A stretch of 64,000 bases of DNA, from positions 5,258,336 to 5,322,335 of the forward strand of contig NC_019695.1 in assembly GCF_000317125.1 (NCBI RefSeq), in the 5' to 3' direction. The stretch's first letter is position 1; the number at the start of each line of letters is the position of its first letter. Of this stretch, positions 14,959 to 22,820 are shown one piece after another. A program made the translations under genes and the position numbers. The notes under the pieces are model-generated. The model did no database searches, was not told the origin of the DNA, and saw only the letters and a program-made list of their open reading frames with translations. The stretch is from Chroococcidiopsis thermalis PCC 7203 (GTDB lineage: Bacteria; Cyanobacteriota; Cyanobacteriia; Cyanobacteriales; Chroococcidiopsidaceae).

Positions 14959-15127
14959 TTGGTAATTGGTAGTTGGTAGTTGCAAGTTAACCCTTCTCCC
15001 CGTTCGATCTCATTCTATTTACCGATCGCTATTTATAACTCTTGGAGGAGATAGCAATCAAAACTTCTGTGACAGACTACGGATTAATTCAGTAAAAAAA
15101 TCTTGCTCGACCGTTAGGAGAAAGATT

Positions 15128-15469
15128 ATGGGTATAGGCGATTTTTTTAAAAACATTCCTGGTGTAGGCGATCGCAGACGAGATGACGATCGAGACTATC
15201 GAGATCGCAATGACGACGACGATCGCAGATATCGCAATCGCGATGAAGATGAGGACGACGATCGCGAGTACAGATATCGTTCGCGGGTAGAAGAAGAACG
15301 AGAATATAGAGATCGGTACGACGAAGAGGATGACGACAACGATCGCAGATATAGAAGGCGCGATCGCGACGATGACGATGAAGATCGAGAGTATAGAAGT
15401 CGCAGTCGGGATGATGATGACGATCGGGAATATCGATCCCGCGATCGCGACGATGACGATGACGATTAA
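15128..15469 (+). CDS. Arg/Asp-repeat low-complexity protein (copy A)
   Basis: 113-aa protein with no family I recognise. A 12-residue hydrophobic/amphipathic head, 'MGIGDFFKNIPG', is followed by about 100 residues made almost only of Asp, Arg, Glu, Tyr and Ser, in blocks such as 'DDDDREYRSRDR', ending in six Asp. It is surely disordered and zwitterionic. The start at 15128 is supported by 'TAGGAGAAAG' 8-10 bp upstream and by the head shared with the gene at 17144-17371. The DNA is packed with HIP1-like 'GACGATCGC' words that translate as Asp-Asp-Arg. Its stop lies 3 bp from the stop of the convergent MFS gene. Function unknown; condensate, charge-screening or desiccation roles would be speculation. 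Confidence 0.75.
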   Translation: MGIGDFFKNIPGVGDRRRDDDRDYRDRNDDDDRRYRNRDEDEDDDREYRYRSRVEEEREYRDRYDEEDDDNDRRYRRRDRDDDDEDREYRSRSRDDDDDREYRSRDRDDDDDD

Positions 15470-15472
15470 CGA

Positions 15473-16732
15473 TCAACCTACTAGCGATCGCCCCATCCTT
15501 TCCTGTTGAAGGCTATTTGTCTCTGGCATTAGTAACCAAAAGCAGGCGAGGGCAACAGAGGCGATCGCTGCTAAAGTGAGGAAACCTGCATTGTACCCTG
15601 CCTCTTGTACTACAAAACCTGTCAGCAAATTACTCAGGGAAGCGCCAATCCCTACAGCAGTACTAATTGCCCCTTGAGTCAGGTTAAAACGACCAGTCCC
15701 TTTAGTTAAATCTGCAACTATTAACACAGATACTACTCCAAAGATACCAGCGCCAATTCCATCTAAAATTTGTACGGAGACGAGAAAAAAGGGATTGTCG
15801 CTAAAAGTGTAGAGTACGCCCCGAATTGGCAAAATCGCAAAGCCTAACAAGAAGACTGGTTTGCGTCCTGCGTGGGCTAAACTTCCCGCCCAAGTTGACA
15901 CGGGGATCATCACCAACTGCGCCACAATGATGCAAGCTGACATGTACAGGGAAGCCCCTGTAGCCTTACCATCTGCAAGTCTTTGTCCGACAAGGGGTAA
16001 CATTGCAGCGTTAGCAAAGTGAAATAGCACGGCAGAAACGGCAAATATGAGGATGCGACGATCGCTTAAGATTTGACCGATGCCAGAAATATGCGATCGC
16101 TTTTCCTGCCCCTCTCCATCTTGCCCATCTTTTGCAGCCCGTGCCAAGTCGGGATCGATGTCTCGATTGCGGATTTGGAGTACGGAGATCGCACTCGCGA
16201 TCGCCGTGACTGCGACAAGAACAAAGATTCCTTCTCTAGCAACGAAATGACCGATAGTACCCGCTAAAGCTGCCGCAGCAACATTTCCGGCATGATTGAA
16301 AGCCTCGTTGCGACCGATGCGACGGTCTAGTTTGTTATATCCGACTATCCCTAACGTAATTGCTGCTATAGCTGGAGGAAAAATTGCTGCTGCTACACCA
16401 ATTAAAGCCTGAGCTGAAACTACTGTCGGTAAGGTTGGCGACAGTATCATGCCGATGCAACCTACCGCAACTAGCGCCGCTGCCACCACAACTAACAACC
16501 GTTTTTGTCGCAGGCGATCGACCACAGCCCCCGCTGGGGTTTGGGCAATTACTGTAGCAATTCCCATAGCAGACATGGCAATCCCGATATTGGCTGGACT
16601 CCATTTATGGGAAGCTTGCAAGTAGATTGCTAAATAAGGTCCGACTCCATCCCGCACGTCAGCAAGGAAGAAATTGAGCCGATCGAGCGATCTCAAACTT
16701 TTTTTCGGCGATCTAAGAGAGTTTTTAGACAT
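15473..16732 (-). CDS. MFS transporter
   Basis: 419-aa major facilitator with 12 predicted TM helices. Typical MFS features: 'GAVVDRLRQKRLLV' in the loop between TM2 and TM3 (G-x-x-x-D-R-x-x-[RK] motif, about residues 67-80), a charged central loop ('RNRDIDPDLARAAKDGQDGEGQ', about 198-218), and 'GAGIFGVVSVLIVADLTKGTGRFN' in the C-terminal half. It starts 'RLNFFLADVRDGVGPYLAIYL', which is common in bacterial efflux MFS proteins of unknown substrate. It lies between the two Arg/Asp-repeat genes and convergent with the first, so they may be functionally linked, but nothing in the sequence proves that. Confidence 0.85.
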   Translation of the reverse strand: MSKNSLRSPKKSLRSLDRLNFFLADVRDGVGPYLAIYLQASHKWSPANIGIAMSAMGIATVIAQTPAGAVVDRLRQKRLLVVVAAALVAVGCIGMILSPTLPTVVSAQALIGVAAAIFPPAIAAITLGIVGYNKLDRRIGRNEAFNHAGNVAAAALAGTIGHFVAREGIFVLVAVTAIASAISVLQIRNRDIDPDLARAAKDGQDGEGQEKRSHISGIGQILSDRRILIFAVSAVLFHFANAAMLPLVGQRLADGKATGASLYMSACIIVAQLVMIPVSTWAGSLAHAGRKPVFLLGFAILPIRGVLYTFSDNPFFLVSVQILDGIGAGIFGVVSVLIVADLTKGTGRFNLTQGAISTAVGIGASLSNLLTGFVVQEAGYNAGFLTLAAIASVALACFWLLMPETNSLQQERMGRSLVG

Positions 16733-16814
16733 AGAATTACAGTCCCTTTCTCAGTAGAAAAAAGGACTAAGTTATTTGTTAAGATAGATTACAGACTAAA
16801 ACAAACGACTAAAC

Positions 16815-17072
16815 TCAAGAATCTACTTTAAGATAGAAACTTGTAGCAACTTTGTCTATTTCATAAATAGAAAAGAAGAGAATTTGCGACTCAACTTCAG
16901 CAGCTCTAAAGCTTTCAATACAAGCAATAGATGTATTTCTAGTAGTAAGGTGAATTTTTGCACTATGTTTGAAGTTTGCCAATATAATAGGAAAACTATA
17001 TATAAATACATTCTCTCTATTTATAAGTCTTATTCCTATAAGTTCGGATGAATGAAACTGTCGCCGTGCCAT
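16815..17072 (-). CDS. Possible small hypothetical protein
   Basis: 85-codon open frame in an AT-rich stretch of 411 bp between the MFS gene and Arg/Asp gene copy B. The translation has no recognisable domain and a hydrophobic patch 'NVFIYSFPIILANF'. There is no good ribosome binding site before the ATG, and codon use does not stand out. It is listed because no other gene occupies this stretch; it may well be non-coding. Confidence 0.22.
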   Translation of the reverse strand: MARRQFHSSELIGIRLINRENVFIYSFPIILANFKHSAKIHLTTRNTSIACIESFRAAEVESQILFFSIYEIDKVATSFYLKVDS

Positions 17073-17143
17073 TAAAAATTCTTGTGATTCGATCGAGACA
17101 AGTTGTTAGAAAATACTCTTAATCGATCTCCCAAGGAGTTTTT

Positions 17144-17371
17144 ATGGAGATAGGCGATTTTCTCAAAAATATTCCTGGCTTTCCGCAAGACCGCCGCGAT
17201 GATGATGGCGATCGCACATCCAGAAGGCGCGATGATGACGACGATGACGATCGCAGGTACAAAGACGACGATCGCGAGTATAGAAGGCGCGATGATGACG
17301 ACGATGACGATCGCAGATATAGAAGCCGTAAACGCGATGACGATGATGATGATGACGATGATGATGACTAA
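17144..17371 (+). CDS. Arg/Asp-repeat low-complexity protein (copy B)
   Basis: 75-aa paralogue of the protein at 15128-15469. It shares the head 'M-x-IGDF-x-KNIPG' (residues 1-12) and a tail of alternating Asp runs and 'RRY', 'REYRRR' segments, ending in eleven Asp. A strong ribosome binding site 'AAGGAG' sits 7-9 bp before the ATG at 17144. Two DNA segments near 17226-17258 and 17286-17318 are near-identical internal repeats, so it has grown by tandem duplication. HIP1-type 'GATGACGATCGC' words recur here as well. Transcribed in the same direction as copy A but separated from it by the MFS gene; a candidate terminator follows at 17443. Function unknown. Confidence 0.75.
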   Translation: MEIGDFLKNIPGFPQDRRDDDGDRTSRRRDDDDDDDRRYKDDDREYRRRDDDDDDDRRYRSRKRDDDDDDDDDDD

Positions 17372-17442: not shown

Positions 17443-17474
17443 TGGCGTTAGCTTCTCAGTTAGCGCCATTTTTG
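17443..17474 (+). terminator. Candidate intrinsic terminator after Arg/Asp gene B
   Basis: An imperfect stem pairs TGGCGTTAG with TTAGCGCCA through a roughly 8-nt loop, using two G-U pairs, and is followed directly by a run of Ts. It lies about 70 bp after the stop of the Arg/Asp gene at 17371. Confidence 0.5.
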
Positions 17475-17580: not shown

Positions 17581-17859
17581 ATGCAAGATCGACTTCGCGC
17601 CCATGTATTCGTTTCTGGTAGAGTTCAAGGAGTAGGCTACCGAATGTCAACGGCTGAGATGGCTGCTGAGATGGGGTTACATGGCTGGGTGCGAAACTTA
17701 CCTGACGGACGAGTGGAAGCCGTATTTGAAGGAACGAGAGAATTAGTAGAAGAGGCGATCGCGTGGTGTCGCCAGGGAAACCCGCCTGCTGTTGTTAAAG
17801 ACGTGGCGGTTGAGTACGAAACACCAGAAGGATTACGCAATTTTGAGATCCGGCGTTGA
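17581..17859 (+). CDS. acyP: Acylphosphatase
   Basis: 92-aa acylphosphatase (EC 3.6.1.7), hydrolysing carboxyl-phosphate bonds in small acyl phosphates in the cytoplasm. It has the complete signature: 'GRVQGVGYR' at residues 13-21 with the phosphate-binding catalytic Arg21, and 'GWVRNLPDGRVEAVFEG' with the catalytic Asn39. Length is standard for the family. The ATG lies directly after a heptamer repeat with no clear Shine-Dalgarno sequence, so translation initiation may be weak or leaderless-like. No functional link with neighbours is evident. Confidence 0.95.
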   Translation: MQDRLRAHVFVSGRVQGVGYRMSTAEMAAEMGLHGWVRNLPDGRVEAVFEGTRELVEEAIAWCRQGNPPAVVKDVAVEYETPEGLRNFEIRR

Positions 17860-20751: not shown

Positions 20752-21667
20752 TTATGTAGATAGATTATGGTAAACAATCCAGAACAATTTGCCAGCGATA
20801 ACTACTCTGGAATTTGCCCAGAAGCCTTAGAATATATGCTGAAAGCGAATGTAGGAAGTTCGCCTGCATATGGTAACGATGAATGGACGCAAAAAGCCTC
20901 AGATTATTTTCGGCAAATCTTTGAAACTGACTGCGAAGTATTCTTCGTCTTTAACGGCACGGCTGCTAATTCACTCTCTCTAGCTGCACTTTGTCAGTCT
21001 TACCACAGTGTCATTTGTCACGAAGTCGCACATATTGAAACCGATGAATGCGGCGCACCAGAATTTGCTTCTAATGGTTCTAAGTTATTACTAGCAAAAG
21101 GCGAAGTGGGTAAGCTAAACCCAGCGTCAGTAGAAGCGATTGTCAGCAAACGTGCAGATATTCACTTTCCCAAACCTAAAGTTATTAGCTTGACACAAGC
21201 TACAGAATTAGGAACTTTATATTCTATCGACGAACTTTTAGCAATTAAAGCAGTTGCCCAAAAATACAACTTAAAAATCCACATGGATGGCGCACGCTTT
21301 GCCAATGCTGTCATCGCAATGAATAAAACTCCAGCAGAAATTACCTGGAAAAGTGGGGTTGATGTCTTGTGTTTTTGCGGAACGAAGAACGGTACGGCAA
21401 TGGGTGAAGCAATTATCTTCTTTAATAAAAGCTTAGCAGAAGACTTTGCCTATCGCTGCAAGCAAGCGGGACAATTAGCATCGAAAATGCGATTTATTTC
21501 CGCACCTTGGCTGGGTTTATTAGAAACAGGTGCTTGGTTAAGAAATGCGCGTCACGCTAATGAATGTGCGGAATATTTAGAAAATCAACTTTTAAACATT
21601 GAAGGTGTAGAAATTCTATTTCCCAGGCAAGTTAATGGTGTCTTCGTGCAGTTATCAGAACATACTA

Positions 21668-22820
21668 TAGCGAGTCTAAGCGAATCGTGAAAAAGCATCG
21701 TAGTTGCTAAAATTTGGAAGATTAAAGAGTTTTAAGTCAACAAAAAGCTGAAATAAACGTTTGACGCTCTTAAAACTTTTTCCAAAACGATAAAATCTTC
21801 TCAGGAGAGTTTTCAGTTGTAACCAAATAGCTTCGACCGGATTCTCTTGAGGGGCATAAGGGGCAAATCGGACACAAGTAATTTGCCAATTTTCAGGAAG
21901 AAGCCCTTCATTTTGTTCGGTGAGAAAATCCCTCATTACTTGCCCTCGATGATAAGAGGCTCCATCCCAAATTAATAAAATTCTGGCTTGTGGATGTTTA
22001 CCTAGTAATTTTTTGACGAATTCTACTGTTAGTTCTCCATTTGCTGTTGGCTCAGGAACCAAAGTAAACTCTTGAGTAAATAGCTCTAGCGCACCATAAT
22101 AAGTTTGCCGTTCCTTGGGATTGAGGATTGGGATTTTTAAAGGATTTTTTACGAAGTTCCAAAGATAGCCAACCAGATCGTTCCAGAGAAGATGACATTC
22201 ATCTATGATATACACAACTAGCTCTTCAGCTTCAATCTGGGGTCGATACTTCTCTAGTAACTCGGCAATTTCTCGGTTTTTTTTGAGATCGCTTCTGGGT
22301 CTTGACGTGGACTGGTTTGTTCTCCTTTTTGCCACGTAATTCGCGCTTCTTTCAACAGTTGATAATAACTTTGTCGCGATTGAAAACTATATCGTACTGC
22401 TCGATTAGATACACCTCTAAGTCTGAAATATCCCAAGTTTTTTGTTCGACCAGCCACTGAATTACCGCTTGCCTTTCAATTTGAGTTAAGTAACCTTTTC
22501 CTCCTTGATACGAAGACCTTAACGCAGCTAATCCACCAGACTCGAAAGCTTGTTTCCATTTGCTAATAAATCCTACAGAAACTTCTAAGATTTGGCTAAT
22601 TTGTCGATATACATAACCTTCCATAGCTAGCTTCACAGCTAAAGCTCTTCTCATCTCTTTTTCATTTGGGTGACTTTGAATGAAATCTTTTAAGAGTTGA
22701 ATTTGTTGTGTTTTGGTTAGAGAAGTCGGATTCACGCTAGTTTTCATCAGCCTCTGACATCTAGAGCTTCATTCTACCTACTTATCTCCAATTTTGTTCA
22801 TAACTTGTTTAGACTCGCTA
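21668..22820 (-). mobile_element. IS630-family insertion sequence, 1153 bp
   Basis: Element with perfect 12-bp terminal inverted repeats TAGCGAGTCTAA at 21668-21679 and its complement at 22809-22820, flanked by TA (21666-21667 and 22821-22822), the target duplication typical of the IS630/Tc1 group. It carries a DDE transposase on the minus strand and interrupts the threonine-aldolase gene. Because host reading-frame restoration is exact, the boundaries are well supported, with only the usual TA ambiguity. Confidence 0.93.
21676..22747 (-). CDS. IS630-family transposase read in three frames (two -1 shifts)
   Basis: The transposase begins at 22747 with a helix-turn-helix region ('RQISQILEVSVGFISKWKQAF', about residues 54-74). 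Its frame closes at 22352, but the protein continues in the next frame ('FQSRQSYYQLLKEARITW') after a -1 shift at a TTTT run near 22387. It then continues in a third frame after a -1 shift at an A8 run (22277-22284). That last frame (to 21676) holds the catalytic core: 'VYIIDECHLLW', 'LLIWDGASYHRG' and 'APYAPQENPVEAIW' give the D, D and E. The A8 slip is a classic programmed-frameshift site; the first may be programmed or a lesion. The stop codon lies inside the terminal inverted repeat. Confidence 0.85.

Follow-up and report, generated by a model that had tools for sequence, protein, structure and literature searches.

The locus and its two paralogous genes

The window analyzed here is a stretch of 64,000 nucleotides from the complete, 6.69-Mb genome of Chroococcidiopsis thermalis PCC 7203. 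It contains two paralogous open reading frames on the plus strand, with the layout given in Table 1. The protein of gene 1 (113 amino acids) begins MGIGDFFKNIPG and that of gene 2 (75 amino acids) begins MEIGDFLKNIPG, so that 10 of the 12 residues of the head are identical. Behind the head each protein continues as a tail of Asp, Arg and Tyr that ends in poly-Asp. The Shine-Dalgarno-like sequence AGGAGA stands 6 bases ahead of the ATG of gene 1, and AAGGAG stands 5 bases ahead of that of gene 2; purine-rich sites are present again upstream of the start in most relatives. An initial annotation made from the sequence had described two genes of 113 and 75 codons with a common head, Asp/Arg/Tyr tails terminating in poly-Asp, and ribosome binding sites; all of these features are borne out. 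The consensus scan that located the terminator-like hairpin 3' of gene 2 gave totals near those expected from shuffled sequence, and the hairpin is therefore weak evidence for a terminator.

Table 1. Features of the locus, in window coordinates
Feature	Position	Strand	Evidence
Two-block element of gene 1, TTTATAACTCTTGGAGGAGAT-N15-TGTGACAGACTACGG	15032..15082	+	matrix score 40.8 bits
Shine-Dalgarno-like AGGAGA, gene 1	15116..15121	+	sequence; recurs in relatives
Gene 1, 113 aa: residues 1-12 amphipathic head, residues 13-113 Asp/Arg/Glu/Tyr tail with acidic C-terminus	15128..15469	+	
MFS transporter gene between the paralogues, judged incidental	15473..16732	-	Pfam MFS_1, E 2.3e-41
Shine-Dalgarno-like AAGGAG, gene 2	17133..17138	+	sequence
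Gene 2, 75 aa: paralogue of gene 1 sharing its head, in the conserved slot just 5' of acylphosphatase	17144..17371	+	
Terminator-like hairpin (11 pairs, then TTTTTG), 3' of gene 2	17443..17468	+	consensus scan only
Acylphosphatase gene, conserved downstream neighbor	17581..17859	+	Pfam PF00708, E 1.8e-25

The pair was also said to flank an MFS transporter gene, and a minus-strand MFS_1 gene does lie between the two reading frames. The same arrangement is found in genome G001. In genome G002, of the same genus, both paralogues are present about 310 bp apart without the MFS gene between them, and none was seen beside the relatives examined in other genomes. We therefore judge the transporter to be an incidental neighbor, and have rejected a functional link to it.

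Further along the window there is a threonine-aldolase-like reading frame of 307 amino acids (20767-21690), the counterparts of which have 345 amino acids in G002 and 344 in G001. It runs into minus-strand reading frames resembling an IS630-type transposase (21676-22747; putative), suggesting from the sequence that an insertion has truncated it.

Distribution of the family and its genomic site

A protein search of 60 relatives gave matches in 13 genomes. When 391 genomes of the order were searched with a profile of the head, 29 had the family at E of 0.01 or better. Three named Nostoc genomes are carriers. In a sample of 386 genomes of the phylum every strong match (E below 1e-9) lay within the order, and the best match outside had an E of 0.016; a full-length profile gave no match beyond the order. 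These counts are lower bounds, for a check of synteny added one member with a divergent head that the head profile had missed. One new weak match to the full-length profile within the order (locus L158 of G336) proved to be a headless tandem repeat that matches the tail profile, and was discarded as a false positive. A mobile origin was rejected, as plasmid and phage records gave no match.

Head and tail occur together in genomes from several families within the order, where the head profile reaches E-values as low as 1e-15 while the background stays above about 1e-2, and this is more than an accident of composition. Neither window protein was assigned to any family in Pfam, NCBIfam or PHROGs; a Pfam search up to E 1 gave nothing for the two, and one up to 0.1 gave nothing for three relatives. 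No description of the family was found in the literature searched, and solved structures searched with the head profile gave insignificant matches only, the best with an E of 1.1. By sequence comparison, then, the window genes belong to a real and undescribed family. The view that no described family has this layout still stands, and one half of what the initial annotation had set against itself, absence of a head plus charged tail from related genomes, does not apply, since the combination is found there.

The family has a conserved site, lying between a DUF1823 gene in divergent orientation and a downstream acylphosphatase gene. At 32 family loci the acylphosphatase gene was in reach at 20 (within 1.5 kb downstream) and the DUF1823 gene at 18. 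In the window, gene 2 is the copy at the conserved position and gene 1 is an extra copy. Twelve loci of other genomes have kept DUF1823 and acylphosphatase while the family gene is absent. Because the copies in G657, G638 and G207 carry internal stops, the sequences suggest that the family gene has been lost repeatedly, and truncated or interrupted copies show that it is dispensable in several genomes. Copies with internal stops were observed at loci L093, L095 and L025 (near position 1501) in Nostoc-group genomes, and are likely to be decaying.

The head and the tail

The consensus of the first 10-12 residues is M-G/E-I-G/D-D-F/L/M-F/L-K/R-N-I-P/V-G, and in an alignment of 20 rows M1, I3, D5 and G12 are invariant or nearly so. 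All 21 distinct heads, including those of both window genes, are amphipathic, with the hydrophobic residues on one helical face. The helical hydrophobic moment at 100 degrees is 0.66-0.80 (shuffle p 0.0006 to 0.022), and the best angle for these heads is 90-105 degrees. Even a head with a four-residue insertion scores as amphipathic. On the polar face D5 and K/R8 are conserved, and this sequence evidence points to a specific contact more than to a generic lipid anchor. Binding to anionic lipid is not favored either, since almost every head variant has a net charge of 0 or -1 and the tail is net negative.

The tails range in length from 24 to 137 residues. Pooled, they contain 41.7% Asp and 25.8% Arg; charged residues make up a fraction of 0.61-0.90 of every tail, and aliphatic residues are nearly absent. 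All members have acidic runs, and in 29 of 31 five or six of the last six residues are acidic. The net charge per residue (NCPR) is -0.217 +/- 0.034 (sd; 30 proteins, one truncated member excluded), with a range of -0.29 to -0.17 and values of -0.20 and -0.24 for the window tails. Independent draws of the same composition and mean length would give an sd of 0.096; since the members share descent the constancy of charge overstates the independent evidence, and the comparison is suggestive and no formal test. In most tails the segregation of charge exceeds random expectation (shuffle z up to 6.8). The median kappa of 0.27 is intermediate compared with peptides (DR)12 (0), (D4R4)3 (0.05) and D12R12 (1.0), with f21-family tails among the least segregated (0.07-0.11).

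AlphaFold2 applied to 20 sequences gave a mean pLDDT of 51.6 and a pTM of 0.13, with the head helical over three residues only and at low confidence. This is consistent with tails that are predicted to be disordered, and with the lack of any confident helix in the models. The proteins had been described as zwitterionic and disordered. The prediction of disorder agrees with the second part of that description; the first is inexact, because the NCPR stays at about -0.22 over tails of 24 to 137 residues, which gives the tail an anionic bias that a true zwitterion would lack.

A conserved element upstream of the family gene

A conserved DNA element of 51 bp begins about 90-110 bp 5' of the start codon. 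Aligned upstream regions reveal two blocks, of approximately TCTAYMYCTGYTGGAAGAGAT and TATGACAAACTACTA, separated by 14 or 15 bases, and the second block ends about 40-60 bases ahead of the ATG. Scanning the window with a two-block matrix gave the gene 1 site as the only strong match (40.8 bits, with the runner-up at 12.3), this site being one of the nine from which the matrix was built. The exact pattern has one site in the whole genome. For gene 2 the two-block element was not found; a GACAAGTTG-like second block alone is kept, and some divergent members likewise do not have the element. Together with the conserved genomic site, this element is an addition to what was initially annotated.

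The core pattern TGGARGAN{20,21}GACARACT was found in 11 of 60 genomes, at one site each and always before a family gene. Among 391 genomes there are 30 sites in 29 genomes, 15 of which precede family genes. Scored with the full matrix, these 15 gave 40.8-52.9 bits (nine of them having been used to build it) and the other 15 gave -5.5 to 15.7. A reversed control pattern occurred in a similar total by chance, and the evidence lies in the position and the full-matrix score. Five family loci outside the matrix set also carry the element (19.0-45.7 bits), and it is absent from the 12 loci that have DUF1823 and acylphosphatase genes and no family gene. The full-scoring element was found only before family genes, once per genome, and seems to be used for the family gene only.

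Several interpretations of the element were examined and set aside. RNA structure in the leader was rejected, with no consensus pairs predicted and no credible Rfam match. So was an upstream leader peptide: the blocks stay conserved although their spacing differs by a single base from family to family, and no shared reading frame would survive this. By inspection the element bears no resemblance to the SigJ J-box (GGGaAtacT), and a plus-strand scan reported no simple sigma-70 promoter within it. The inferred role of the element is that of a promoter or an operator.

Relation to known proteins

Charged disordered proteins are an already known kind; what is new is the conserved head together with a constrained net charge and a dedicated upstream element. 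A close resemblance in composition may be drawn with R-MCD proteins, whose low-complexity tails are rich in Arg and Asp; how the charges are arranged and what net charge results have been shown to count in them (PMC9324279). The family tails are similarly composed mostly of Arg and Asp and are predicted to be disordered. However, the incorporation of R-MCD proteins is favored when an Arg-enriched balance makes the net charge neutral or positive (PMC9324279), and the NCPR of 30 family proteins is -0.29 to -0.17. The family is bacterial, and its members are small, stand-alone and net negative with a conserved head. The Hero (heat-resistant obscure) proteins are also small, hydrophilic, highly charged and disordered (PMC7067378), and the family proteins resemble them in size, hydrophilicity, charge and predicted disorder. 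They are a functional class defined by heat solubility without sequence homology, whereas the family has its conserved head and dedicated element. LEA and tardigrade proteins resemble the family in its hydrophilicity and predicted disorder, but neither LEA nor any other Pfam profile matches either window protein. The basic-acidic dipeptide domains of U1-70K, which are named in the literature, alternate basic and acidic residues in low-complexity sequence like the family tails; they are part of a eukaryotic splicing factor, while the family tails hold Tyr and sit behind a conserved head.

Selection and alternative explanations

Gene 1 has relatives of 96% identity in two genomes of the same genus, with dN/dS of 0.07-0.19. 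Over its 113 codons there are 6 synonymous and 5 non-synonymous changes relative to G002, and 14 and 5 relative to G001. Counted pairwise, the substitutions between same-genus orthologues overall yield dN/dS of 0.06-0.19, and the heads show no amino acid change; repetitive tails may misalign and bias dN low, making the near-gapless gene 1 comparison the safest. One close Nostoc pair gave 1.37, from seven changes only. These sequence comparisons suggest that the family genes are under purifying selection. Such low values within the genus count against the idea that the tail is a DNA artefact, arising as a side effect when the HIP1 repeat (GCGATCGC) expands in a cyanobacterial genome. The idea draws on the HIP1 core CGATCG, which is in excess over synonymous-codon shuffles in the window genes (8 against 2.1 expected, and 4 against 0.8), and on GAT-CGN coding for Asp-Arg. 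Yet in Nostoc and some other genomes the same proteins are encoded with 0-1 CGATCG sites and no excess, and the tails accordingly did not arise from HIP1; the codons for Asp, Arg and Tyr are moreover of mixed synonymous usage. We find this explanation hardly credible. An excess of CGATCG over the synonymous-shuffle expectation was also observed in several same-family relatives.

Explanations that take the protein as the functional product turn on what the tail does. It might form condensates, as the initial annotation proposed: Arg/Tyr clusters and Asp runs would make the protein associate with itself or condense together with other polymers, while location or valence would be set by the head. 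The Arg/Tyr/Asp make-up, the high charged fraction (0.6-0.9) and the segregation of charge are in keeping with this, and in eukaryotes mixed-charge domains of Arg and Asp collect in nuclear speckles (PMC9324279). In the same work (DR)12 and (D4R4)3 stay soluble and D12R12 alone makes droplets, and incorporation grows with net positive charge. Because the family tails are net negative, with kappa between that of soluble and droplet-forming peptides and f21-family tails among the least segregated, self-condensation would be possible but is not favored, and we regard it as unlikely. A soluble stress protectant, shielding against aggregation in drying (a role also raised in the initial annotation), heat or salt stress in the manner of Hero or LEA proteins, would fit the extreme hydrophilicity, scarcity of aliphatic residues and predicted disorder, and Hero proteins do protect enzymes from drying (PMC7067378). 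This role, with the head playing a minor part, leaves the conserved head and single-site regulation unexplained, and the gene has a patchy distribution in the order, with losses; it too appears doubtful. We think it highly unlikely that the protein is a cation or mineral binder, in which Asp runs would take up Ca2+, Mg2+ or other metals or would control carbonate, and Arg clusters would set the net charge. The acidic C-termini and runs would suit such a function, but Arg at about 26% of the tail weakens simple polyanion binding, and no metal gene is obviously conserved alongside.

A model for the family

Taking the computed features together, namely the family and its conserved site, the pattern of the head, the constrained charge and predicted disorder of the tail, and the upstream element, we prefer a reading to which we give a probability of about 0.4. 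The family would comprise small anchored polyampholytes, in which the first 10-12 residues fold as a short amphipathic helix and thereby attach the whole to a surface, be it a membrane or a partner protein. Given the conservation of D5 and K/R8, we lean toward docking on a protein and away from lipid. The disordered tail behind the head, with Asp runs alternating with Arg/Tyr clusters, would act as a charge-tuned brush, spacer or scaffold on the docked surface. It would do so through its bulk properties of length, hydration and an NCPR near -0.2, with no need for a fixed sequence. Expression would be set by the control element that is seemingly reserved for the family gene.

A broader proposal, which we consider distinctly unlikely, is of a bacterial class of surface-anchored polyelectrolyte proteins in which net charge and length, and not sequence, carry the function. 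Each gene would be under the control of its own element, present once per genome, and the head would direct a charged coat to one specific cell structure.

Charged disordered proteins have been studied mostly in eukaryotes, where the contributions of sequence and of bulk properties are hard to part. In this family the tails have varied in length over fivefold and have exchanged D with E, R with K and Y with H, while the NCPR has barely changed. The genes are small and keep a fixed place in the genome, and natural losses are found close by, so that selection on bulk charge would be directly testable in bacteria.
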